From the NCBI GenBank assembly GCA_963555705.1, contig OY743174.1:24927608-24991607 (forward strand): a stretch of 64,000 bases of DNA, written 5' to 3'. A program made the translations under genes and the position numbers. Origin of the DNA: Ligustrum vulgare. Taxonomy: Eukaryota > Streptophyta > Magnoliopsida > Lamiales > Oleaceae. Positions 1 to 46,806 of this stretch are shown here, in pieces. Numbering within the stretch: the stretch's first letter is position 1; the number at the start of each line of letters is the position of its first letter. The notes beneath the pieces are model-generated. The model saw only the letters and a list, made by a program, of their open reading frames with translations. It ran no database searches and was not told the DNA's origin.

Positions 1-1730
1 CTAAAGGGGGCTGCACTTAATTATCCCACATATGACAAGGAGTTGTACTCACTTGTGCGCGCTTTGGAGACATGGCAACATTACTTGTGGCCACGGGAGT
101 TCGTGATACACACTGATCATGAATCCTTGAAGCATTTGAGGGGTCAAGCTAAGTTGAGTAAGAGACATGCAAGGTGGGTAGATTTCATCGAAACATTTTC
201 CTAAGTCATCCGGTATAAACAAGGTAAGGAAAATGTGGTGGCAAATGCATTGTCTCGAAGGTATGTTCTTTTAAATTCTTTGAATGCTAAACTGCTTGGA
301 TTTGAATATATCAAGGACATGTAAGCTAATGATCTGGATTTTTCTAGTATTTATGATTCATGTGGTAAAGGGGCTGTGGATAGGTTCTTTAAACATGATG
401 ACTACTTATTTCGGGAAAATAAATTGTGTGTCCCTAGGTGTTCAATGAGAGAGTTACTTGTGAGAGAGGCCCATAGTGGAGGTTTAATGGGTCATTTTGG
501 GGTTAAAAAGACCATCGAAATCCTGAGTGAACATTTCTATTGGCCTAAGATGAAGATTGATGTAGTTCGGGTTTGTAATCGATGCATTACTTGCAAGAAG
601 GAAAAATCTAGGATTAAACCCCATGGATTATATATGCCTTTACCCGTCCCTAGTGAACCTTGGGTCGATATCTCTATGCATTTTGTTTTGGGATTACCTA
701 GGACTAAGAAGGGAAGAGATTCTATTTTTGTGGTAGTAGATCGCTTTAGTAAAATGACACATTTCATACCATGACACAAAACTGATGATGCTACCAACAT
801 AGCTGATATTTTCTTTAGGGAAGTCGTGTGCTTACATGAGGTTCCTAAAAGTATAGTCTCGGATAGGGATGTTAAATTCCTTAGTCATTTTTGGAGAGTC
901 TTGTGGAACAAACTGGGAACAAAACTACTTTTCTCTACAACTTGTCACCCACAGACCGATGGACAGACCGAGGTAGTAAATAGGACAATGATTCAATTGT
1001 TGCGCACCGTAATCAATAAAAATCTGAAAAATTGGGAAGAGTGTTTACCATTTATTGAATTTGCATATAATAGAGCTATACATTCTACTACTTCTTGTTC
1101 ACCATTTGAAATTATTTATGGTTTTAATCCGCTAACACCATTGGATTTAATTCATTTACCTGTGAATGAACCTAGTAGTTTGGATGGAAAGAAAAATGCT
1201 GAAATGGTTAAATCACTCCACGACAAGGTGAGGTTGGCGATTGAAAAGAAAAATGAACATTATGCATCACATGCTAACAAAGGAAGAAAAAGCGTCATAT
1301 TTGAACCCGGTGATTGGGTTTGGGTACACTTGAGGAAGGAGCGGTTTCCAGAACAACGCAAATCAAAGTTACAACCGCGAGGAGATGGTCCATTCCAAGG
1401 ATTGAAAGGATCAACAACAATGCCTATAAATTAGATCTTCCTGGTGAGTATAATGTTTCGACTTCGTTTAATGTTTTTGATCTATCTCCGTTTGATGTAG
1501 GTATAGATTCGAGGTCGAATCCTTTTGAAGAGGGAGGGGATGATGTGATCCAGACCACGAATACAAGCCCGCTCAAAGATCCGATGATGATCAAAGAAGG
1601 ACCGATGACTCAATTACAAACGAAAAGGGCCAACGAAAATGGACAAGCTAGTACAAGAAACAATGACCAAAACAATGTTCGTGTCATCAAAAGAAGCAAG
1701 TTTCATGTTGGGACCGAGCCAAAACGATGA
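1..1730 (+). pseudogene. Ty3/gypsy (chromovirus-like) pol, RNase H-integrase part, decayed
   Basis: The reading frame enters from the left edge inside RNase H ([10 protein letters not shown], near 115) and continues through integrase. The integrase shows the zinc-binding His/Cys cluster (GLMGHFG...CNRCITC, about 490-600), the catalytic core (WVDISMHFV near 660, IVSDRDVKF near 850, DGQTEVVNR near 960) and the C-terminal [13 protein letters not shown] block near 1310. Known role: cDNA synthesis and chromosomal integration of a retrotransposon. The copy is dead: in-frame stops lie at 202, 322 and 772, and the frame shifts near 1400, after which the usual family ending (NVFDLSPFDVG...PFEEGGDDVI) continues in another frame to about 1730. 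The protease and reverse transcriptase lie left of the window or are lost. The family is clear; the exact lineage is inferred. Confidence 0.93.
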
Positions 1731-24453: not shown

Positions 24454-24625
24454 ACGGTTTGGTTTAAATCAAAGATTTAATTTACATAATTTTTTAAATC
24501 ACTTTTTAATTATACACATTTTCTCTCTCTAATTTTTAACCACATATTTTATCTACAAAGTTTAAATAAATAATCTCTCTCCAATTTAAATAAGCGCTGA
24601 ATACAACCCTTAACTACTTTGTCTC

Positions 24626-24833
24626 TGTTATAAATAATGTATATATGTGAATGACATTACCATTATATCCCTGTAAACTTTACAATATTACGATTGTGCC
24701 ATTGTCCACTCCTATAAATAGGAGCCTATACTTACCAATTTATTACACCAATTCTTGAAGAGAAATTCTCTCCTCTAAACTCTCTCCATTTCTCTCTCTA
24801 TGTTGTTCTTATGATTTCGATGATTTTATAACA
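24626..24833 (+). repeat. 5' LTR of the gene-carrying element
   Basis: 208 bases, TG...CA ends, identical by eye to the LTR at 30756-30963. CTCCTATAAATAGGAGCC (24709-24726) holds a TATA-box-like TATAAATA between inverted CTCCTA/TAGGAG arms, the likely core promoter. A CT-rich tract follows. Confidence 0.93.
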
Positions 24834-24852
24834 CGTTATCAGCACGAGTCTC
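24834..24852 (+). other. Candidate primer binding site
   Basis: CGTTATCAGCACGAGTCTC follows the 5' LTR directly. It does not begin with TGG as sites for an intact tRNA 3' end do, so the primer is uncertain and may be an internal tRNA segment. Confidence 0.4.
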
Positions 24853-24959
24853 TAACCAATTGAGTAATAACGGGAGTATGCTCTACAGTTGCATCTAAAT
24901 GATGAGCCTCTGTATCAGAAACCTGATTATTACTAACCAATGTTTCCTTTTCTCTCAAA

Positions 24960-25320
24960 CTGAAAAAGAATGATTCTGGCCGATCCAGATATCCGATCGA
25001 CGATCGGCCACCGCCATCAGAACGGGCTTGTCAAGGAGAAGACTCGCCTAAAATTTGGCGCAGAACCAACGGCTGAAACAAAAGATATCGACCGAAGAAG
25101 AAAATCTGAAAAACTGTGCAAAAACAGATATCTGACCGAAAATTGAAATGCTTATTCCGGACGATTCTGAACTCCGATCGACGATCGGCCAGCGGCATAT
25201 CAACGGGTTTTTCTAGGAGAAGACTCGACTGAAATTTGGCGCAAATCCAACGGTTAAAACGGAAGTTATTGTCCGGAGAAGAAGATGCTGGCGGACTGAA
25301 AAATGATGATTCCGGCCAAA
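24960..25320. repeat. Diverged tandem duplication of about 180 bases
   Basis: The blocks 24970-25110 and 25150-25290 share TCCGATCGACGATCGGCCA, GGAGAAGACTCG and AATTTGGCGCA. The palindrome CGATCGACGATCG occurs in each. No gene is assigned here. Confidence 0.8.
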
Positions 25321-25779
25321 CGGTTGATCTTTTGGAAAATCGGAGACCACCGGCATGTTCAGGACGCCGAGGCACATATTATGGTGATGGGTTAATTTTT
25401 CCGATCACCGGCGCGTGGCGGCCGGCGGCGGCCGGCGGCGGCGGCGCGTGGCGGATCCGGCGATGACGAAAGGCAGTTTGTCCGTTTTGATGAATTGGAT
25501 TTTTCTATGATCTTATTTTTCTGTTTTGTGCAGTTTTTAAAATATTCCGGCGGTCGAACATGGCGGTTTTCTTAAAAACTGTTTTTGGAGCAATCCTGAC
25601 GAGATTTTGAACTTCGGACCAAAAGTAAGTTTGTTCTAAATTAAATTTTAAACCTATTGACGGTTTCAATTTATTCATATGAGCAATATATTAAAATATG
25701 GACGATTTTGCCCTTAATAATACATACAAGTATAATAATCGTAAATTAACGATTAATATGTGATCAATTGAATTATATT

Positions 25780-25960
25780 ATGCTGCCACCTACATGGTTG
25801 GTTTTACCACCTACATGGTTGGCTTTACCCGGTTTAATTATTTCATTATGTCGATTCCGCCTATATGGCCGGTTTAATTGTTTCATCTCGTTGATACCGT
25901 CTATATGGCTGGTTTAATTATTTCATCACGTTGACACCGCCTATATGGTCGGTATATCAA
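25780..25960. repeat. Short tandem repeat with CCTAYATGG core
   Basis: About five degenerate units with the words CGCCTATATGGCCGGTTTAA and TTTCATCACGTTGA. Confidence 0.8.
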
Positions 25961-26105
25961 TTGAATACATATAAACACCTCAGTTGTTGGTTAATTCTAA
26001 CATATTAGAGGGTTGTTGTCAACATATATACTTGGTGGTATAACCCCAGTATCGTTATTGTTAATATATATATACAATATTATTGTTATTTGATACTTCA
26101 TTAAA

Positions 26106-26496
26106 TGATACCAGAAGTTATCAATACTAAAGTTAGAAAATATTTTATCAAATGATACCAGAAGTTATCATTACCAAAAGGTTGATAAATATTAATAAAA
26201 TGTTTTATCCAATGGTACCAGAAGTTACCAATATCTGAATTTGAATGGGTGGATGAAAATTATTCAACAAGAGAATGTTGATGTATGATAAGATAATATC
26301 ACATGATAGCACGGATATAGCTAATGTGAAAATAATCTCATCAGTATTATGAGATGAATGTTAGATGATAAGTGCCTGGAAAAGTTCTTGCACGAGCACT
26401 TATATATTCCAGAAGAAGTACATATTTACTCCAGAAGAAGTAAAAATTATCATCTAAACATACTGAAATGATATTATTATTGCTCCTGAAGAAGCA
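26106..26496 (+). repeat. Hairpin array, left block
   Basis: Short inverted repeats around a fixed centre. TGATAC-CAGAA-GTTATCA (26106), AATGATAC-CAGAA-GTTATCATT (26151) and TGGTAC-CAGAA-GTTACCA (26213) vary in the arms but keep the centre. TTTACT...AGTAAA (26425) and TGCT...AGCA (26481) surround CCAGAAGA and CCTGAAGA. The array resumes beyond the captured genes. Confidence 0.85.
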
Positions 26497-26554
26497 TAAA
26501 CGAGACATACATGCAAAATGCAAAAGGGGAAAACATTTATGATCCTCAAAATTA

Positions 26555-26765
26555 GAGATGTGTTTCGGGAGTAGCCGTATCCTACCACCTCTGACCTTTT
26601 GAGGAAATAAAGAAAAAAGTGTGTTTCAAGAGTAAGAAATACTCCATACTCTACCACTTTAAATCTTTGAGGTACACAAGATTAATACATTGATAAAATC
26701 CTAGAAATTTATGGTGTGTCTCAAGAGTGAGAATACTCCGTACTCTACCACCACCTATTCTAGAG
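26555..26765. repeat. Threefold degenerate repeat next to the LOG gene
   Basis: Three diverged copies of a unit beginning GTGTTTCGGGAGTAG / GTGTTTCAAGAGTAA / GTGTCTCAAGAGTGA and including CTCTACCAC, just beyond the stop codon of the LOG frame. Confidence 0.75.
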
Positions 26766-26766
26766 T

Positions 26767-27420
26767 TCACAAAGATAAATTTACATTAACCGGACTCCAT
26801 TTTCGCTTGATTCCCCTTCCTTGCGACCAATCTATCTTTACTCCTGCTGGATCTTGTATTGGAATATATGATTGCAACTTATCCAGCAGTTCCTCGATAG
26901 TAGGAGCAGAAATAAGGATTCTCCTAGAAAATGGAGATATGAATCCCTGTTCCACAGCATAATCAAGAAATGTTAGCAAACCATCAAAGAAATTGTTTAC
27001 ATTTAAAAGCCCTATAGGCTTAGTATGGAGATCTAGTTGAGCCCATGAAGTAATATTAAAGATTTCTTCTAAAGTACCAAAACCTCCAGGCAGGGCTATG
27101 AAGGCATCAGAACCATATAACATGCAAGTTATGCGTTCATGGATAGATAAGGTTTGTACTTCATGCCCTCGTGTTTTGCCTGCAATATCAGCTAAAGGAG
27201 TAGGTATAACACCTATCACTCTTGCTTTCTCTACTAGAGCGGATTGTGAAACACAACCCATCAATCCACTGCTACCTCCTCCATACACGAGAGTGATACC
27301 TTTCTCTCCCAATTTCTTTCCTAAATCCACGGCTGCTTCTAGATACCCAAAACCTTTTCCCACTTTTGATCCACAAAATACACAGATAGTTTTGATCTGT
27401 CGAAATTTTGGTCCTTCCAT
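26767..27420 (-). CDS. LOG-family cytokinin riboside 5'-monophosphate phosphoribohydrolase, intronless copy
   Basis: 217 residues, the usual length of plant LONELY GUY proteins. LOG enzymes release active cytokinin bases from their riboside monophosphates in one step, normally in the cytosol and nucleus. The Rossmann-like start TICVFCGS (residues 11-18), GGGSSGLMG (47-55), the conserved Arg in HERITCM (R96) and the family motif PGGFGTLEE (111-119, fitting PGGxGTxxE with E119) are all present, as is KPIGLLNV (134-141). The Lys that often follows the Arg (HxRK) is Ile here. There is no stop or frameshift. Plant LOG genes normally have several introns; this copy is one exon, pointing to a cDNA origin. 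It lies antisense inside the LTR element. The start at 27420 follows an upstream A-rich stretch and aligns with family starts. Promoter and expression are unknown. Confidence 0.9.
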   Translation of the reverse strand: MEGPKFRQIKTICVFCGSKVGKGFGYLEAAVDLGKKLGEKGITLVYGGGSSGLMGCVSQSALVEKARVIGVIPTPLADIAGKTRGHEVQTLSIHERITCMLYGSDAFIALPGGFGTLEEIFNITSWAQLDLHTKPIGLLNVNNFFDGLLTFLDYAVEQGFISPFSRRILISAPTIEELLDKLQSYIPIQDPAGVKIDWSQGRGIKRKWSPVNVNLSL

Positions 27421-27668
27421 TTTTGAAAGTAAAGAAGGAAAATGTTATTTTGGGATGCATGAACTATGAAAAATGTTTGGCTATTTAAAACCGAAAAACT
27501 TCACTATTTACTGGTCGTTTTTCGAAAAAGTGAAGATTTACTTTTGACAAAATCATCCTACTCACCTTTCGGCGATTTAATATTTTTAACCAGCCTTTAT
27601 CAAAACTCGTGAAAGGAAACAGAAAAAATATTTTATATGTGCATATATATCAAATGATTTACCTTGTA
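27421..27668 (-). other. Spacer between the two captured reading frames
   Basis: About 250 bases between the stop of the Cys4 frame and the LOG start. On the minus strand ATTAATACAAG-GTAAATC just after the first stop resembles a 5' splice site. No protein frame. Confidence 0.4.
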
Positions 27669-28241
27669 TTAATGCTGCATAGCCAAAGCATCATTGTTTA
27701 TAACAGCATGGCAAACAGGATCTTTTGCTATTATATTTTTGAGACTATATCTCTCTTTATCGCTGATGAATTTAGCCCATAAAGATAGTAGCTCACGCTG
27801 CACATATCCACTAGGGTGCGTCTCAAGAGTCAATCGGATATCATCCAATGACTCCTTACTCAGTCCACCCTTAATGAAGTCTATCTTATCATCTCGATTT
27901 ATGGATGAATATCCTATTGATTTACAACGGGTATCACATGTCCATCGAGCACATTTGTAGCAACTATTTAATCTTTTTGCTCTTCGCTTCTTTGCAAAAG
28001 TACTCTTACCTAAGCCAGGCTTGTGCTTAGAAAATGAATCTGGTAATTCACCAGCTAATCGAACTTTTGCTTCGATCAACCAGCGAACATCTTCTGGCAT
28101 GCCATGATCCATCAGCAACCTCAATCTTTCGAGCCTAATTCGATAAATTTTTCTCAAATCATTTACTGGAAGATTGGAATAATATTTGCGAATATTTGAA
28201 AGTATGATATCCATTTTTGATGGATCTAGCCTTCTTCCCAA
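27669..28241 (-). CDS. Unrecognised 190-aa Cys4 protein captured with LOG
   Basis: An uninterrupted 190-residue frame on the same strand as LOG and upstream of it in transcription order. Residues 20-60 are charged and helical (NDLRKIYRIRLERLRLLMD). A strongly basic stretch KKRRAKR (84-90) could be a nuclear signal. It is followed by C94-x2-C97-x4-C102-x3-C106 (CYKCARWTC), a likely zinc site, then RDDKIDFIKGGLSKESLDDIR. The balanced composition and lack of stops indicate a real protein kept under selection until recently. I do not recognise the family. The neighbouring intronless LOG suggests it too was copied from a host gene. It shares no motif with Gag, Pol or known transposases. Confidence 0.7.
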   Translation of the reverse strand: MGRRLDPSKMDIILSNIRKYYSNLPVNDLRKIYRIRLERLRLLMDHGMPEDVRWLIEAKVRLAGELPDSFSKHKPGLGKSTFAKKRRAKRLNSCYKCARWTCDTRCKSIGYSSINRDDKIDFIKGGLSKESLDDIRLTLETHPSGYVQRELLSLWAKFISDKERYSLKNIIAKDPVCHAVINNDALAMQH

Positions 28242-28510
28242 ATCATCTATTTAAATGCATTATTCAACGCGTAAAAGAGCGGCGGCTCCGCGTGTCAGTG
28301 ATATGGATTCCATCAAGAAATAATGGAATAAATTATTGAAAAGGTGAGATAATATGCCATTACCTTTTTCGATATAAGGGAAGATTTGGCGACAAGATTG
28401 AGATTATGAGATATTTCCTTGGATATTGTACCTGATTTTTCGGTATACTAAAAGTAATAAAGGTATACTGATTTGAACTATATAGAATACTGATGAAATA
28501 AATGTTGTAT
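28242..28510. other. Region upstream of the captured Cys4 frame
   Basis: Includes a GC-rich patch GAGCGGCGGCTCCGCGTG (28277-28294) with a small GAGC(C)GGC...CCGC inverted arrangement. It could be a 5' leader of the captured gene. No reading frame is assigned. Confidence 0.35.
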
Positions 28511-29281
28511 TGAACCAGAAGTTCATACATATGTACAAGTGAAATATCTTATTGAACCAGAAGTTCATACGTACAAGTGAAATATGTATATAGTATGAAC
28601 CAGAAGCTCATAAATGAAATATACATTGTATTGAACCAGAAGTTTAGCGATATTGTATTGAATCAAATATTCATACATAGAAATGAAATAAAACCGTATA
28701 GAACCAGAAGTTCTATAATAAACGGTTAGATTATCAAAAGTTCCAAATTATTTTCTATGAGAATAACTTATTCAGAAATTGTTTATCATACAACAATATT
28801 CTATGTCAAACAGGGAATAGCTCAAGAAGCTTTATTATTTGTAAAAGTGCGATATGCATACACTCCACCAAAGCGCACTGAGATATATGATTGAAATTAC
28901 ATCCCTAAAAGAATGACATGTGTTATGGCATTTTAGCCGATTGATAATATTTGAGAACATTATGGTGAAAACACGCCTGAAGCGTAATTATGCCTGAAGC
29001 ATAATGACTATCGATTCCAAAAATAAATATCTCTTGAATGATTGAAATGATTCCTTTGAGGCTAAATACTCAAAGTAAGTAAAAGGGACATAGTCAAATG
29101 ATGAGATATTCAGGTACCTGATGATAGAACATATAAAGAGATCTCTCCACGTTATATTGAGATGGAATCGATAAATAAGTCGACTGCATACCCTCTTATG
29201 AAATAAGATTGATGAAATCATAATTCTTTGGCCAAGTATGAAACCCTAATGTAGGGATTATTGTTCAAGGACCTGAAGTCC
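28511..29281 (+). repeat. Hairpin array, middle block
   Basis: TGAAC-CAGAA-GTTCA at 28511 and 28553, TATGAAC-CAGAA-GCTCATA at 28594, a decayed unit at 28632, TATAGAAC-CAGAA-GTTCTATA at 28697 (8-bp perfect arms), ACGC-CTGAA-GCGT at 28973, ATTATGC-CTGAA-GCATAAT at 28987 (7-bp perfect arms) and GGAC-CTGAA-GTCC at 29269. Confidence 0.88.
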
Positions 29282-29759
29282 AAATGCTTAAATGTGTAAA
29301 GCCAGTAATTATATGTACAAATGAAAAATATTTCACAGTCGTAAAAGACGACTAGTTGCGCGCGAAATTTTTCATAGAACTGGCATGACATATGGTGGAT
29401 AGACTATAGTCTAAATCACTAGCTTGAGCTCCTTGATATACCAATGAGTGAGATCAAAATGTATGATTCTCATCTCGGTACTTTGGGAGTATTCTTTGAT
29501 GTACCAGTTGATCGCGGTACGTTGGGATTTCAAGTAAAATGATTGTAGATTATATGTCGAAATTGATATCTATTTCAATGATTGATTATGCTCCTGCAAA
29601 ATTAGAAATTGCAGTTTATAAAGTACAAGAACATACATGTATAAATCATTGAAAGATTCAATATGCCCAGATTAGTATCACTATAGAATGATACAAATGA
29701 CTCCATGATATAATATGTTGAAAGTGAAATTGGAGTGTACTATTTATGACATCTGGGAA

Positions 29760-29960
29760 ATTGATTATTCACTAGAAGTGAATACGAAAATGAATATTCA
29801 CCAGAAGTGAATTTGAAATTGATTATTCACTAGAAGTGAATTTGAAAATGAATATTTAATTATTCACTAGAAGTGAAAGATGCAATCTATGAAAGTGAAT
29901 TATAGATTTGATTATTCACCAGAAGTGAATTCTAAATTTGATTATTCACCAGAAGTGAAA
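29760..29960 (+). repeat. Hairpin array, right block (six ATTCAC units)
   Basis: Six near-identical units ATTCAC-(C/T)AGAA-GTGAA(T/A) at 29767, 29796, 29825, 29862, 29914 and 29944, spaced by 29-52 bases. Confidence 0.92.
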
Positions 29961-30024
29961 AATACAATGAAAAGATTCGTGATTGCACCAATATACATGT
30001 AATATTCCATGAAAGGAATAAATA

Positions 30025-30735
30025 CGCGTTGCACTCTTTTTCCCTTAGCTGAGGTTTTGTCCCACAGGGTTTTCATAGCAAGTTTTTTAATGAGGCAACA
30101 GTTGAGGCGTATTGATGAAAATTAATGAGAATAATGCACTCTTTTTCCCTTCGCTGAGGTTTTGTCCCACAGGGTTTTCCTAGCAAGGTTTTTGAGGCAT
30201 CATCATAGCTATCAACAAGCTATAATTCAGCAACACATTATTATACTGGAATGATATCAACAAATGAAGAAAATCATACACATCTTATGAAGAATGTTAT
30301 GATATCGACTACACACAAGAAGATTTTCATATATATTCCAGAAGAAAGATGATATCATTATTCAAAAGGTTCATGAATACTTGATTGCACACTTCAGGGG
30401 GAGAATCATGCTGTCATGCTGTACTCTTTTTCCTTCGTCCAGGTTTTGTCCCACAGGGTTTTCCTGACAAGGTTTTAACGAGGCAGCGGCTGTACTCTTT
30501 TTCCTTCGTTCAGATTTTGTCCCATTGGGTTTTACTGACAAGGTTTTAACGAGGCAGCACTGAAGCACTGAAGAACTTCAAAGATTCAATACATGATTTG
30601 TTCTACTTGAACATTAAGACTCAACGATTGACGATGGCCAATATCAGGGGGAGCAACTGTACTCTTTTTCCTTCGCTCAAGTTTTATCCCATTGGGTTTT
30701 CTTAGCAAGGTTTTAACGAGGCAGACAGTTGCGTA
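30025..30735 (+). repeat. Five copies of a copia 3'-region phrase before the 3' LTR
   Basis: Units of 60-70 bases with CTCTTTTTCCTTCG, TTTTGTCCCACAGGGTTTTC and GCAAGGTTTTAACGAGGCA, starting near 30032, 30137, 30422, 30492 and 30660. Some plant Ty1/copia elements carry the same kind of block between pol and the 3' LTR. It supports a copia parent. Confidence 0.85.
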
Positions 30736-30744
30736 ATATGTCAT

Positions 30745-30755
30745 TCAAGGGGGAG
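30745..30755 (+). other. Polypurine tract
   Basis: CAAGGGGGAG lies directly against the 3' LTR, the usual primer for plus-strand synthesis. Confidence 0.75.
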
Positions 30756-30963
30756 TGTTATAAATAATGTATATATGTGAATGACATTACCATTATATCC
30801 CTGTAAACTTTACAATATTACGATTGTGCCATTGTCCACTCCTATAAATAGGAGCCTATACTTACCAATTTATTACACCAATTCTTGAAGAGAAATTCTC
30901 TCCTCTAAACTCTCTCCATTTCTCTCTCTATGTTGTTCTTATGATTTCGATGATTTTATAACA
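30756..30963 (+). repeat. 3' LTR of the gene-carrying element
   Basis: Identical by eye to the 5' LTR over all 208 bases. GTCTC follows at 30964-30968. Confidence 0.93.
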
Positions 30964-30968
30964 GTCTC

Positions 30969-31600
30969 TAAGACTTGTATTAATTAATTAATGGTGAAAT
31001 ATTGAGGTCGTACAATTCACGAGTTTCTCATGCATTATTTTTTCATTTCTCTATCCTTGAAAATGGTCATGATAACTCCCGCCTTTTGGTGTCCTTGATT
31101 AGTAATTCCACTTGCCATTTTTAATCCATTTTCTTTTATCACAGAGACTTCTTCCAATTGCTTAACAATTAATTTTTAAGATTCTCTCTCTGAATTCTTT
31201 GAATAGACCACCAATTTATTTGATTCTTGAATATTTGGCTATATTTTAGGTAAGGACTTCGACTTTGAGATTTATATTTATTTAATGGTTCTCGGACCGT
31301 ACCCTTATTTTCATTCTATTTAGAGCATATTTGAGATAATGTAAAAATATTTTATTTTATTTTATTTTATTTTTTTCATGGATTTGTGATTTAAAAATGT
31401 TTGAAAATTAAAAAATTGTGGGCTTGACTAAGAAGAATGGTTGAAATTGAGTTTTAAAAGTTGTGGTGAAATTTTTTACTTTGTCAAACAAGCTATCACT
31501 TCGAGAATTTTTGTTTCTTTTACGATGGACTCTATGAATTTGAAGTGCGAAAAGCCCATCATCCATTTTATAGTATAATTTTGGATTAATTGCGCACAGT
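30969..31600. other. Intergenic, nothing recognised
   Basis: AT-rich sequence with a (TTTTA)n tract near 31352-31372. No gene seen. Confidence 0.45.
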
Positions 31601-39984: not shown

Positions 39985-41760
39985 TTACATACGTACATCG
40001 CTAATTTTTAGACTAGCACACTTTCTTTGGTTTGAAGGAGGAACAAAACATGCATTCGAAGTGTCAGGGGTGCTGTGGTCCTTAGCGGAGTGGATCAGAT
40101 CATTTATGAAATCTGTGCTAAATGATTTATTTTTCTCTGGAATAATTGCCTCCTGCAATCTAGCATAATAACTAGCCTTCTTCTCCTCGTCGCTAGGCTG
40201 TAAAAAACTACTTTGACCTAATGTAAACCCCAACAAGCATATGAATAACATCAATGGTAGTTAATATAAAATCGTATAGTAAAATACATGTTCATACATA
40301 TTATGCAAATAAATGAAGAGTTTATAAAATATGTTAATACCTGAGGATTTTCGAAAAGTACTTTATAAGTGATGTCCCTATTACAGGGTGTCGTCTGAAC
40401 TCCAATTGACCACATGGGGGAATGAATTGCCAACTCTTGCACAAACTTTCCCAGAAAGTATTGGGATGGACTCATAAATCCATACCTGAAATGCAAAAAG
40501 GAATTCGTGCAGCTTGTAAGTCATTGTGCCTCTCGTTTCACCAACGTTGGGATTGGACTTTGCAAGGGCAATTTTTAGGGAGAAGTATGTCATTTTAAAA
40601 ATCTCTTTCCTCCATGGAAAACTATTCAGCTGTGGAGAGTCAACGAGCCTCATTGTTTCATTAGATACTAACTTCGGCTGGGGAGGTGTGAATAGAAAAG
40701 AAGAAACCAGATATAGGATGCCCAACTTCACTACATCCTCGTCTGACGTGTTTTGAGGTGGTCTTAGGAACACACACTCCACATCTTTCCTAAATACGAT
40801 CTTCAAGTTGCTAAAGAATGTCTCTTTCAAATGGCATGCCCCAATTTTGAACTTGCTTGTTTTATCATCTCTGTCACATTTTAATCCACTAATAAGGTTG
40901 AATTCCTCAATAGAGAACTTAGTAACTTTCCCAGCAATGTTGAACCACATCTCCTCATGTGATGATTGTCTGGCTTCAAGCAAGAGCAGTTTATATATGA
41001 GCTGATTTTGCATACGAATTTCCCTCATCCCAAGGAAGTGACCAAAACATGTTTCCATAAATATCTGCTTCTGTTGTGCATTCATGTTGAGCTTGAGGAT
41101 TGTTATGACTACATATCTATAAAACACGTTTATACTGGTACCAAACCTGTTGCTGGGATATACATAGAACTCTCCTTCATGTTCAGTAAGACATTGAATA
41201 TGTCATACAGAATAAATGACATAGCAATCTGTTAGATTTCACCAATTACATTATGATTCTAGATAATTATAAAAAGGTCCTTCAAAAAAATAAATTCGTG
41301 TTGGATTTTCACTAGTACCAGTTTTTGTATTACATATTCTTTAGAACAAGAATCAAGTAAATTTTTGTTATTTTCATGTTGAGATAGATTAAAACATAAA
41401 AAATATTACATGCCATCACTTACCTTTGATTCATGACTCTCTACCAATTTTTTCTTCTTGGAACTGGGGTCAAGGAAAATCAACTCTATTTGTCTCTTAG
41501 AACTTTTGACCTCTGGAGTAGTCTTCTTCACGGAAAATTTGTTTTGTAGATTATGAGAAGAAGGAGAAGTAGGAGCAATAGCCATTCTATCTGAATTATT
41601 GCCTATGGCACGAGTGATTCGTCACGTAGGAGTCTGGAAATCTTCATTCTTAGGTTATATAACCTCTATTGATGGTGCTGCATAATTCGTTCGCTTCATT
41701 TTACCGGTGCCTGAGTTTGAAACTCGATTTGGTGTCTCCCTAGCAAATGGTCAAAAGTTC
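39985..41760 (-). pseudogene. DUF1985 (Ulp1-associated) gene, 5' exons
   Basis: Minus-strand exons. The first (about 41720-41435) opens MKRTNYAAPS, contains stops, includes RITRAIG and ends with a clear donor TCAAAG-GTAAGTG. The main exon (41127-40480) reads KQIFMETCFGHFL, LIYKLLLLEARQS, EEMWFNIAGKVTKFSIEEFNLISGLKC and FQVWIYESIPIL, the pattern of plant DUF1985. Next come YGFMSPSQYFL (about 40490-40345) and a 40254-39985 frame with SDEEKKASYYARLQEAI. DUF1985 usually precedes an Ulp1-like protease domain in genes spread by MULE or CACTA transposons. No protease domain follows here, so the gene is truncated. Its own function is unknown. Confidence 0.75.
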
Positions 41761-42788: not shown

Positions 42789-45700
42789 CTAAATCATGAT
42801 ATCCTCAAGAAATATTACACCCATACGAGCAGTGTGCTCGTGAAAGACCTTGGGTGCTAATCCCTTAGTAAGCGGATCCGCAATCATGGAGTTTGTCCCA
42901 ATATGCTCTATGGAAATCTGTCTACTCTGTACCCTTTCCTTCACAACCAGGAACTTAATGTCAATGTGCTTTGACTTAGTTGAACTCCTGTTGTTATTGG
43001 AATATAGCACTGCAGAGTTATTGTCACAATATAACTTTAATGGTCTTTCAATTCCATTCCGAATGCGCAGCCCGGTGACAAAATTTCGCAGCCATATCCC
43101 ATGATTAGATGCCTCATAACAAGCTACAAATTCTGCTGCCATAGTGGAAGAAGCTACGAGTGTCTGCTTAGCACTCCTCCAAGAAATGGCTCCTCCAGCT
43201 AGCAGGTATATGTAGCCTGATGTGGATCTTCTACTATCTTGGCATCCCGCAAAATCAGAATCGGAGTATCCTACGATCTCTAACTTATCCGATCTGCTGT
43301 ATGTAAGCATGCAATCTCTTGTTCTCTTCAAGTACCTCATAACCCTCTTTGCTGCTTTCCAATGATCCATCCCAAGGTTACTTAAATATCTGCCTAGCAT
43401 TCCAACAATGAACGCTATGTCTGGACGTGTACAAACTTGAGCATACATCAGACTCCCAACAGCTGATGCATAGGGAATCTTTTGCATTTCCTTAACTTCA
43501 AGATTATTTTTCGGGCACTGATTGAGACTAAATTTGTCTCCCTTAGCAACAGGGGTGTCCCCTGGTTTACTATCCTGCATGCCAAACCTTACAAGTACTT
43601 TATCGATATAGCTCTTTTGTGATAATCCAAGAATACCCCGAGAGCGGTCCCGGTGTATCTGAATTCCTAATACGAAAGAGGCGTCCCCAAGATCTTTCAT
43701 CTCAAAATTCCTTGACAGAAAACTCTTGGTTTCGTGCAACATGCCTATATCATTAGTGGCAAGCAGTATGTCATCGACATACAAAACCAGGAAAATATGC
43801 TTACTCCCACTGAACTTGTGATACACACAATCATCAACAACATTTATCTCAAAACCAAACGAGATGATCACTTGATGAAATTTGTAGTACCACTGACGGG
43901 AAGCTTGCTTGAGTCCATAGATGGATTTCTTTAATTTGCAAACCATATTCTTCGAGTCTCCTGACACGAAGTTTTCTGGTTGCACCATATAAATCGTCTC
44001 ATCAATGTCTCCATTGAGAAACGCCGTCTTTACATCCATCTGATGTAACTCAAGGTCAAAATGTGCAACAAGTGCCATGACTGTCCTGAAAGAGTCTTTC
44101 GTTGAAACCGGAGAGAAAGTCTCTTTGAAGTCAATACCTTCCTTTTGTGTAAAGCCTTTAGCTACAAGACGAGCCTTATATCTTTCCACATTACCTTTCG
44201 AATCCCTTTTGGTTTTAAAAATCCATTTACAACCAATGGGTTTCGCACCTTCTGGTAATGGGACAAGATCCCAAACTTTATTGTCTTGCATAGACTTATA
44301 CTCCTCATTCATGGCATCAATCCACTTTTGAGAGTCAGAACCCTTCATGGCCTGATGAAAATTGATTGGATCATTTTCCATCATTCCATTATTTTCCTCA
44401 TGTTCTTGGAGAAATACTACATAGTCATCCGAAATAGCATTTTTCCTTTCTCGAGTGGATCGCCTTAATGGTATTGTTTGTTGAGGTTGTTGAGTTTGTA
44501 TTTCTGGATTTTGGATGGGAGTTTCTTCAACATTATCATGCTGAGTTTCCGGATGTACTTCTTGATCAATGACAGGTATAGAAACCTGCACATTGTCAAA
44601 AGTAACAGTAGGAATCGAAATCGATCCTTCCTCAGCTTCTTCCTCAAAGATAATGTCTCTAACCTTATTTCTCCCCCCAAACTCAACATCCTCAAAAAAA
44701 TGTTGCAGTTCCCGTTTCAAAAATTGACTTAAGTGTGGGATTGTAAAATTTGTAGCCCCTTGATCGCTCAGAATAACCAATAAAGTAGCTGCTAACTGTT
44801 TTGGAGTCCAATTTATCCTCATGCGGCCTATAAGGCCTTGCCTCAGCTGGACATCCCCAAATGTGGAAATGCTTTAGACTAGGCTTTCTGCCTGTCCAAA
44901 GCTCATAAGGTGTTTTAGCAGCAGCTTTAGTTGGTATTCTATTCAGAATATAAGCTGCAGTCTTTAATGCTTCTCCCCAGAGTGATTTTGGCAAAGTAGA
45001 ATGACTAATCATACTCCTTACCATATCCTTAAGAGTCCTGTTTCGTCTTTCAGCTACACCATTCATGCTAGGAGAACCTGGCATGGTGTACTGTGGGACG
45101 ATTCCACATTCCTCTAGGAATCTAGCAAATGGTCCTGGACGTTGTTCACCTGAACCGTCATATCTGCCGTAGTACTCACCACCACGATCAGATCTAACGC
45201 TTTTAATTTTCTTGTTGAGTTGATTCTCAACTTCAGCTTTGAAAGCTTTGAACATGTCCAGTGACTCAGACTTTTCATGAATAAGATATAGATGCCCATA
45301 ACGTGAGTAATCGTCTATGAATGATATAAAGTATTGTTGACCATTCCAGGAAGCCGTAGGGAATGGTCCACAAATATCCGTGTGTATCAATTCTAAGACG
45401 TCCGAAGTTCTATTAGCACCTAACCTTCTCGTTTTGGTCTGTTTTCCCTTGATACAATCAATACAAACATCAAAGTCCGTAAAGTCGAGGGAATCCAAAA
45501 TGCCATCTGACACAAGTCGTTCAACTCTAGTTTTTGAGATGTGACCTAAGCGCTTGTGCCATAGTTTTGCCGAATTTTCTTTATTTAATTTTCGCTTAGT
45601 ACCACGTGATTCCACATACAAGGTTTCATTATATGACGCAATAGTATCAAGCAAATATAGGTTATCGTACGAACATAATGAACCAGTACCAACAATATTT

Positions 45701-46806
45701 GAATTTAAAGAAAGACTAAACTGACAATTTCCAAAAGAACAATAATATCCTGATTTGTCCAATAAGGAAATAGAAACCAAATTCCGTCTAAATGACGGTA
45801 CAACAAAAGTGTCTTTCAAATCCAAATAAAAACCAGTTCCCAATAATAACCTAAAAGTTCCTATTGCTTCAACTTCCACCGATTTTCCATCGCCCACAAA
45901 GATGAATCTTTCAGCATCACTTGGCTTTCGGCAGAACAGGCAACCCTGCATAGAAACACTTATGTGAGTAGTAGCACCAGAATCTAACCACCAAGTGTTT
46001 CTAGGTACTGAAGCTAAATTAACCTCAGAACAGACCAAATTAAGAAATGTACCTTTCTTTGCACGCCAAGCGTTGTATTTGGTACAATCCTTCTTTAAAT
46101 GTCCAGGTTTCAGGCAAAAGAAACAACCCTCTTTTTCCTTATGTGGCTTCTTTTGATCTGGACCCTTAACAGCTTCATATTCTGTTTTTCTTTTCTTGCC
46201 CTTATCCTTAGAGGTACTTGCCAAGTTAGCAATTTCAGTTCTATCCTGCTTCAGCCTTTCTTCCTCTTGCACACAATATGAAATGAGCTCATTTAGAGTC
46301 CATTTCTCCCTTTGACAGTTGTAACTGACCTTAAACTGACTGAAATGTGCAGGAAGCGATATCAATACTAAATGCACGAGCAAGTCATCAGACAAGTCGA
46401 GCTTTAGTGCCTTAAGTTTTGAAGCAGTATGAGACATCTTCATGATGTACTCCCTTATGTTCCCCTTGCCTCTGTACTTCATTGAAATCAAGCTTTGCAG
46501 AAGCGTGCTTGTTTCAGCCTTATCGTTTTTAGCAAAACGCTTTTCAAGTTCGGCAAGGAATTGCTTGGCATTAGTTACCTCTTCAGATACTGCGCCCCTA
46601 AAGGCTTCCGGAATGCCGCGCTTAATGATCATTAGACTCATGCGATTTGAGCGTTCCCACTTCTCAAAGTTCCTCCTGTCATCAGGTGAACTTGCATCCG
46701 TAAGAGAAGCCGGTTGCTCAACCCTGAGAGCAAGGTCAAGATCCATGCAGCCGAGAACAATTAGTGCGTTCTCTTTCCAATCCTTGAAGTTTGACCCATC
46801 AAGCAT
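42789..46806 (-). CDS. Ty1/copia gag-pol polyprotein, one frameshift
   Basis: The first frame (46806-44692, 704 aa) runs Gag ([19 protein letters not shown] at the start), a CCHC knuckle (C228, C231, H236, C241), protease [10 protein letters not shown] (272-281) and integrase with the HHCC region ([10 protein letters not shown]...CIDCIKGK), [17 protein letters not shown] and the late Glu of [10 protein letters not shown]. The second frame (up to 42789) has reverse transcriptase ([28 protein letters not shown]) and RNase H ([23 protein letters not shown]). Protease-integrase-RT-RNase H order is diagnostic of Ty1/copia. A run of seven T on the coding strand (44694-44700) shifts the frame just after integrase; an insertion of one base is the likely cause, though a read error is possible. 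The gag frame stays open upstream of this ATG to an acceptor-like site near 46854, so the true start may be spliced. Confidence 0.95.

Follow-up and report, generated by a model that had tools for sequence, protein, structure and literature searches.

The locus described here is a long terminal repeat (LTR) retrotransposon of Ligustrum vulgare, lying in a stretch of 64,000 nucleotides of contig OY743174.1 (below, "the window" means the whole of this stretch). The element carries two intact genes, both antisense to it. One encodes a protein of the LONELY GUY (LOG) family. The initial annotation of this DNA, made from its letters, had already described an intact, intronless LOG gene borne by a young LTR element, and our analysis upholds this description: the frame is single and unbroken over 217 amino acids and has matches to the LOG family. 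The other gene, directly upstream of LOG on the same minus strand, was overlooked by that annotation. It encodes a nucleic-acid-binding protein (NABP) of a type known from plant RNA viruses. The features are collected in Table 1.

Table 1. Features of the retrotransposon and its two genes, in window coordinates
Feature	Position	Strand	Basis
Target site duplication GTCTC, left copy	24621..24625	none	sequence read
5' LTR, 208 bp, TG...CA	24626..24833	+	identity to 3' LTR
Primer binding site CGTTATCAGCACGAG, fits half tRNA-Ile(IAU)	24834..24848	+	13/14 bases against tRNA-Ile anticodon arm as assumed by us
C-terminal tail of LOG KRKWSPVNVNLSL; VNLSL is a degenerate LxLxL (EAR-like)	26770..26808	-	tail comparison with relatives
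LOG-like gene, 217 aa, one uninterrupted frame	26767..27420	-	domain, PDB and protein matches
LOG residue 122: Asn; prenyl-pocket Glu in canonical LOGs	27055..27057	-	alignment
LOG PGGFGTLEE motif, residues 111-119; E119 is the catalytic Glu counterpart	27064..27090	-	alignment
LOG residue 97: Ile; adenine/prenyl-pocket Lys in canonical LOGs	27130..27132	-	alignment
LOG R96, catalytic Arg counterpart	27133..27135	-	alignment
248-bp spacer between NABP and LOG genes	27421..27668	-	splice-donor-like AAG/GTAAAT just past NABP stop, by eye
NABP gene (181 aa) for a zinc-finger-like nucleic-acid-binding protein of virus type	27669..28214	-	Pfam, protein matches
NABP Cys cluster C-x2-C-x4-C-x3-C, residues 85-97	27924..27962	-	NABP alignment
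70-nt repeat, five copies, upstream of polypurine tract	30029..30725	+	repeat family D1
Polypurine tract AAGGGGGAG, abuts 3' LTR	30747..30755	+	sequence read
3' LTR, 208 bp, TG...CA	30756..30963	+	identity to 5' LTR
Target site duplication GTCTC, right copy	30964..30968	none	sequence read

The structure is that of an LTR retrotransposon in every respect that we looked at: two TG...CA repeats, a target site duplication, a primer binding site and a polypurine tract are all present. Re-inspection bears out the anatomy first reported, namely identical 208-bp LTRs, the GTCTC duplication and the polypurine tract, together with their coordinates. The LTRs agree at 208 of 208 bases. At a rate of 1.3e-8 substitutions per site per year (PMC3701649), zero differences over this length give, by our own arithmetic, an upper 95% bound of about 0.55 million years on the age of the insertion. 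The element is young and recently inserted. An assembly duplication as the source of the identical LTRs was considered and rejected, because the target site duplication, the primer site and the polypurine tract are each in place.

Like the initial annotation, we found no Gag or Pol. A tblastn search of the element with the window's own copia polyprotein frames gave a best E of 1.2. Apart from LOG and NABP there are 19 further frame pieces of at least 60 amino acids, and all ten of those scanned against Pfam (10/10) lacked a match at E <= 0.1. Hence the gag and pol genes of an autonomous element were not found by tblastn or in these ten pieces, in which no further viral gene was recognised either.

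The LOG-like frame matches TIGR00730 at 2.2e-47 and PF03641 at 7.4e-34, and its best match in PDB is AtLOG3 (1.6e-59). From stop to stop it spans 225 codons, more than expected by chance: when the internal region was shuffled 200 times by mononucleotides, no frame was longer than 180. Both the LOG fold and the PGGxGTxxE motif of the TIGR00730 family are present: the AlphaFold model (pLDDT 83) has AtLOG3 as its best match, with 52% identity in the structural alignment. The protein thus shares with the plant cytokinin phosphoribohydrolases their fold, this motif and the catalytic Arg and Glu. It differs from them in its changed residues 97 and 122, its basic tail, its place in a separate clade and its uninterrupted frame; host plant LOG genes have introns.

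The altered residues deserve attention. In CgLOG the catalytic residues are Arg99 and Glu122, Lys100 belongs to the adenine and prenyl sites and Glu125 to the prenyl site; Lys100 and Glu125 are identical in AtLOG3, OsLOG and CpLOG, and alanine mutants of AMP-binding or catalytic residues, with Lys100 named among them, are reported to lose nearly all activity (PMC4979012). Arg99 corresponds to our R96 and Glu122 to E119, while Lys100 and Glu125 fall on residues 97 and 122. For comparison we used 120 listed proteins, of 7301 matching at E <= 0.001, which we call element-type by their similarity to the window copy, and, as canonical LOGs, the 120 nearest matches to AtLOG3. The catalytic Arg is kept in 114/120 and the catalytic Glu in 118/120 of the element-type proteins, and both are kept in the window copy, which also retains the pocket Trp. 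The pocket Lys and the pocket Glu are each found in 120/120 of the canonical proteins, and they are seen in the alignments of AtLOG8, 5zbj and 1t35 as well. Among the element-type proteins Lys persists in only 6/120 and Glu in 5/120, so that they are lost in 114 and 115. Five of the six proteins with Lys keep Glu too (four named Xanthoceras proteins and P0047), and the two such proteins placed in our tree, P0102 and P0047, branch at its base; this suggests that the loss was stepwise. The tail is a further difference. An LxLxL motif, which is the EAR repression motif, occurs within the last 14 residues of 95/120 element-type and 0/120 canonical proteins, and a basic cluster within the last 22 residues of 105/120 and 1/120, respectively.

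Consequently, the statement of the initial annotation that all main LOG motifs are present is right for the catalytic residues and for PGGxGTxxE, and wrong for the pocket Lys and Glu, here Ile97 and Asn122. Its suggestion that the gene, if transcribed, could alter the cytokinin level where the element lands becomes questionable as regards a rise. Because these two pocket residues are absent, here and in most of the relatives, cytokinin activation by this protein is, in our opinion, doubtful.

The NABP frame has 181 amino acids from the Met that is common to most relatives, or 190 if it starts at a TTG. Its scores in Pfam are 37.4 bits for PF05515 Viral_NABP (3.4e-9, cut-off 23) and 24.7 bits for PF01623 Carla_C4 (2.4e-5, cut-off 20.9), both above the gathering cut-off, which places it in the flexivirus family of NABPs, or cysteine-rich proteins (CRPs). 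Stop to stop it has 193 codons, and the longest frame in 200 shuffles of the internal region had 180. Aligned members of the family have the Viral_NABP match in 22 of 23 cases and the Carla_C4 match in 21 of 23. The Cys cluster is preceded by a basic stretch, as in the viral proteins. Unlike these, which are known from carla-, tricho-, allexi- and mandariviruses, the present gene is part of the nuclear DNA of a plant and has a LOG as its neighbour, with no other viral gene recognised in the element. Since the NABP family is known as viral, we infer that the gene was transferred from virus to plant and not the reverse. In BFVD the top two matches of the NABP model come from Fig latent virus 1 (an RNA silencing suppressor, E 0.15) and from Cherry mottle leaf virus (a 15-kDa protein, E 0.27). 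Neither match is significant, and the fold search is only suggestive because confidence in the model is low. A search of IMG/VR with the NABP alignment confirmed 0/65 candidate stretches; the LOG alignment gave 23/42 confirmed, all of them distant (23-41% identity). Just after the NABP stop codon, at window 27657-27665 on the minus strand, there is a splice-donor-like AAG/GTAAAT, and by reason of this site NABP and LOG might share one spliced antisense transcript.

Viral CRPs related to NABP are described as silencing suppressors, and the CRP of chrysanthemum virus B as a transcription factor that causes hyperplasia (PMC12172455). This allows for a different account, in which LOG is still a cytokinin activator, NABP is a transcription factor that induces hyperplasia, and the two jointly drive cell proliferation, giving the element access to dividing cells or to cells destined for the germ line. 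The confidently modelled LOG fold, the retained catalytic Arg and Glu and pocket Trp, and the hyperplasia caused by the viral CRP (PMC12172455) all agree with it. However, the protein has lost a Lys and a Glu shared by AtLOG3, OsLOG, CpLOG and CgLOG, and the nearly inactive alanine mutants of CgLOG, with Lys100 among those named (PMC4979012), argue against it. We regard this account as unlikely, while worth keeping in mind.

Both genes appear to belong to plant gene families that are conserved, and neither resembles a fresh host copy. The NABP protein search gave 355 matches at E <= 0.1, and among the 120 of these that were listed, all those with a named organism are from plants (Orobanche, Populus, Xanthoceras, Rhamnella and Acer); clusters of NABP hold up to 566 member sequences, a number that may include repeated samples. 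The listed LOG matches open with a protein of 94% identity on a 998-bp contig, followed by others of 50-65% identity, and the named relatives among them include Diospyros, Reevesia, Xanthoceras and Populus. By hand count, Reevesia alone accounts for 36 of the 120, spread over 15 chromosomes, a repeat-like pattern.

Moreover, the two genes occur together elsewhere. Three Orobanche gene models (P0143, P0145 and P0158) carry PF01623, PF05515 and PF03641, with NABP joined to the later part of LOG, that is, in the same order, NABP then LOG, as in the element. When 67 LOG and 105 NABP entries were compared, seven LOG/NABP pairs had the same source and a contig of equal size, against a control mean of 1.3 and a control maximum of 5. 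Four of the seven contigs could hold both reading frames (control mean 0.33, maximum 3, over 120 offsets). The tree positions of one pair, P0075/P0139, agree, both members lying beside Populus.

It could be supposed, then, that LOGL10-like and NABP-like genes are a pair domesticated by the host, which this copy captured as a unit. Indeed the annotation of some relatives is that of an ordinary gene, for example LOGL10 of Populus and Diospyros. Yet the repeat-like spread of LOG in Reevesia and the size of the NABP clusters (again with possible repeated samples) do not fit such genes well, nor does the report that consensus sequences of LTR retrotransposons from Citrus and Populus contain YgdH, which is the LOG domain (PMC9289625). 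We consider a captured host pair very unlikely.

The initial annotation proposed that a cDNA of a host LOG gene had been captured and was being moved as cargo. A tree of 61 LOG rows, made by a quick method, does not agree with this. It included the window copy with 33 of the 120 listed element-type matches, 24 of the 120 AtLOG3 matches with AtLOG8, and two bacterial rows. All 34 element-type rows group together in a clade of their own (support 96), and so do the 25 canonical rows (support 95), which span Arabidopsis to the gymnosperm Cryptomeria; fast evolution of the element clade could inflate this depth, and canonical LOG subfamilies other than these are thinly sampled. Because the two sets form separate clades, the cargo LOG is, by this tree, not a recent copy of the sampled canonical LOG1/LOG3 type, and recent capture of a host cDNA was rejected on that ground. 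In the corresponding scenario a normal host LOG mRNA was copied as cDNA into the element, as a passive or a cytokinin-raising cargo. The single uninterrupted frame with its intact catalytic motif and the identical LTRs are what one would expect from it. Its difficulties are the separate clade, the altered pocket, the 52% identity to AtLOG3 in the structural alignment, and the adjoining NABP gene of virus type with its own plant family. Given also the many plant relatives, the occurrence of both genes in three Orobanche models and the constraint on both proteins, recent cDNA capture is unlikely, and we judge this whole scenario to be highly improbable.

That constraint was assessed by simulating neutral coding evolution on a tree for each family (17 rows for NABP, 20 for LOG), adjusted to reproduce the mean identity observed, with 60 runs each; stops were barred, since database proteins are intact by selection. 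NABP has 42 invariant columns if gaps are taken as unchanged and 36 if gapped columns are left out, while the neutral mean is 12.2 and the maximum 18. LOG has 45 by either count, with a neutral mean of 6.3 and a maximum of 12. Judged against this model, both protein families are shown to be under constraint. The result bears on the idea that a cDNA of an RNA virus and a cDNA of LOG were joined long ago and are copied as non-functional passengers, without benefit to the element. Non-autonomous elements can carry passengers, and no Gag or Pol was found in our searches. But both frames are intact in a young copy, the invariant columns of both proteins are well above the neutral simulation, and the catalytic Arg and Glu are kept in 114/120 and 118/120; mere passengers are, in our opinion, quite unlikely.

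To which lineage the element belongs is indicated by its primer site. CGTTATCAGCACGAG is complementary at 13/14 positions to what we take to be the anticodon arm of plant tRNA-Ile, and the single mismatch is base 34, which, being edited to inosine, pairs with C. No tRNA genes were found in the 64-kb window. Among the lineages surveyed in PMC6317226, half tRNA-Ile primer sites are given for Bianca alone. On the strength of a primer site that fits an edited half tRNA-Ile (with the arm sequence assumed as above), the element is probably a Ty1/copia element of Bianca-like type. The 5-bp target site duplication is another likeness to Bianca; a difference is that no polyprotein, reverse transcriptase (RT) or integrase was found here. 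At window 24848-24855, where the primer site ends, stands GTCTCTAA, which recurs at 30964-30971 in the 3' target-site flank, possibly by chance. In the non-coding interior (window 26090-26233 and 28493-29975) there are short degenerate repeats of several families, whose cores are ACCAGAAGT or CACTAGAAGTG/CACCAGAAGTG.

Genes of comparable position are known. The aORF-3R genes (Grande gene23, RIRE2 and Retand TRP28) are likewise conserved accessory genes lying antisense inside an LTR element; for the Grande frame, a separate promoter and nuclear localisation of the product are reported (PMC7264820), and TRP28 has predicted DNA binding (PMC11963269). In those elements the gene is placed between pol and the 3' LTR and, according to the review, has no virus similarity (PMC7264820), whereas here there are two genes, one of them clearly similar to a viral family, and no gag-pol was found in the element. 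As to LOG itself, YgdH has been reported as cargo of LTR retrotransposons, in consensus sequences from two species of Citrus (PMC9289625, citing Steinbauerova 2011). Populus trichocarpa YgdH appears when a five-copy filter is not applied, and the domains that pass it are all in Gypsy-type elements (PMC9289625). Those sequences are alike in bearing a LOG-type domain; they differ in that each consensus was built around an RT domain, with Gypsy-type elements in Citrus and a superfamily that the excerpt consulted leaves unstated for Populus, and neither an NABP partner nor a changed pocket or a tail comes up in the same excerpt (PMC9289625). A survey of extra reading frames counted those of at least 250 codons (PMC6317226); LOG (217 codons) and NABP (181) would escape it because of this threshold. 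Chiba 2011 described an endogenous flexivirus replicase in cucumber, and a term search of that text gave no 'nucleic acid-binding'. In titles and abstract starts of the open-access literature we found no report of a LOG and NABP pair borne by a retrotransposon, which does not prove its absence.

Taking everything together, we think it rather probable that this is an old cassette of two antisense genes on a non-autonomous LTR retrotransposon, a virus-like NABP and a rewired LOG, which favours the spread of the element. The element would be moved in trans by an autonomous relative. Its NABP would derive from the nucleic-acid-binding or cysteine-rich protein of a plant flexivirus, and its LOG from a LOG phosphoribohydrolase in which the pocket for the base and the prenyl group was rewired and which, in most sampled relatives, has a basic tail with LxLxL. 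By analogy with Grande, both genes would be expressed from an antisense promoter of their own. NABP, as its viral relatives do, may shield the RNA of the element from host silencing or act as a nuclear regulator, and the altered LOG would be its nuclear partner that hydrolyses or senses nucleotides, rather than an ordinary cytokinin activator. Acting jointly, the two could favour propagation; the cassette probably serves the element's spread.

Several points weigh against this interpretation. The antisense orientation is seen here and conservation across species is at the protein level, while LTRs were seen at this one copy only. No named Reevesia protein is among the 120 NABP matches listed (of 355), and LOG may therefore travel without NABP. 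The pairing control reached 3 once; the pair P0047/P0214 is incongruent between the LOG and NABP trees, and the other two pairs lack resolution. The YgdH of Citrus sits in Gypsy-type and not in Copia-type elements (PMC9289625), whereas the primer site here is of copia type; this would mean that the cassette has passed from one superfamily to another, or else that LOG was acquired repeatedly. Confidence in the NABP model is low (pLDDT 58), the tail of the window copy reads VNLSL and has no strict LxLxL, and the canonical LOG sample is narrow because all 120 are nearest matches to AtLOG3. Finally, the simulation used one simple substitution model without indels, and the proteins in databases are intact by selection.

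A bolder version may be put forward tentatively, as a possibility that we would not bet on. A lineage of plant LTR retrotransposons would have built a two-protein module for manipulating the host out of parts from two foreign sources. One part would be a silencing suppressor or nuclear regulator of an RNA virus, the other a host LOG that now hydrolyses or senses nucleotides in the nucleus and recruits TOPLESS through an EAR-like tail. Being antisense, the module would have its genes transcribed separately from the genomic RNA, and it would have spread across eudicots along with these elements.

Elsewhere the window holds a copia element at 42789-46806 (minus), with overlapping long gag/integrase and RT frames (RVT_2 2.7e-75, Retrotran_gag_2 1.2e-18), and a DUF1985 protein frame at 40381-41127 (minus, 8.7e-24), which we take to mark a plant DNA transposon. 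At 376-1730 (plus), frames resemble by eye the end of a gypsy-type polyprotein, and 826-1434 matches SH3_Tf2-1 at 1.6e-7.

This locus bears on the question of where the antisense extra genes of plant LTR retrotransposons come from and what they do. The 2020 review describes them as lacking virus similarity and known function (PMC7264820), and the 2025 paper on Retand names an unknown virus as their possible source (PMC11963269). A cassette with a recognisable viral-type protein and an enzyme makes both origin and function testable. If NABP suppresses silencing, a retrotransposon would be employing the counter-defence of a virus against the silencing of its host. In LOG, its partner, mobile DNA would have recruited a hormone enzyme and altered it. 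Some plant genes now annotated as LOG-like may likewise prove to be transposon-borne.

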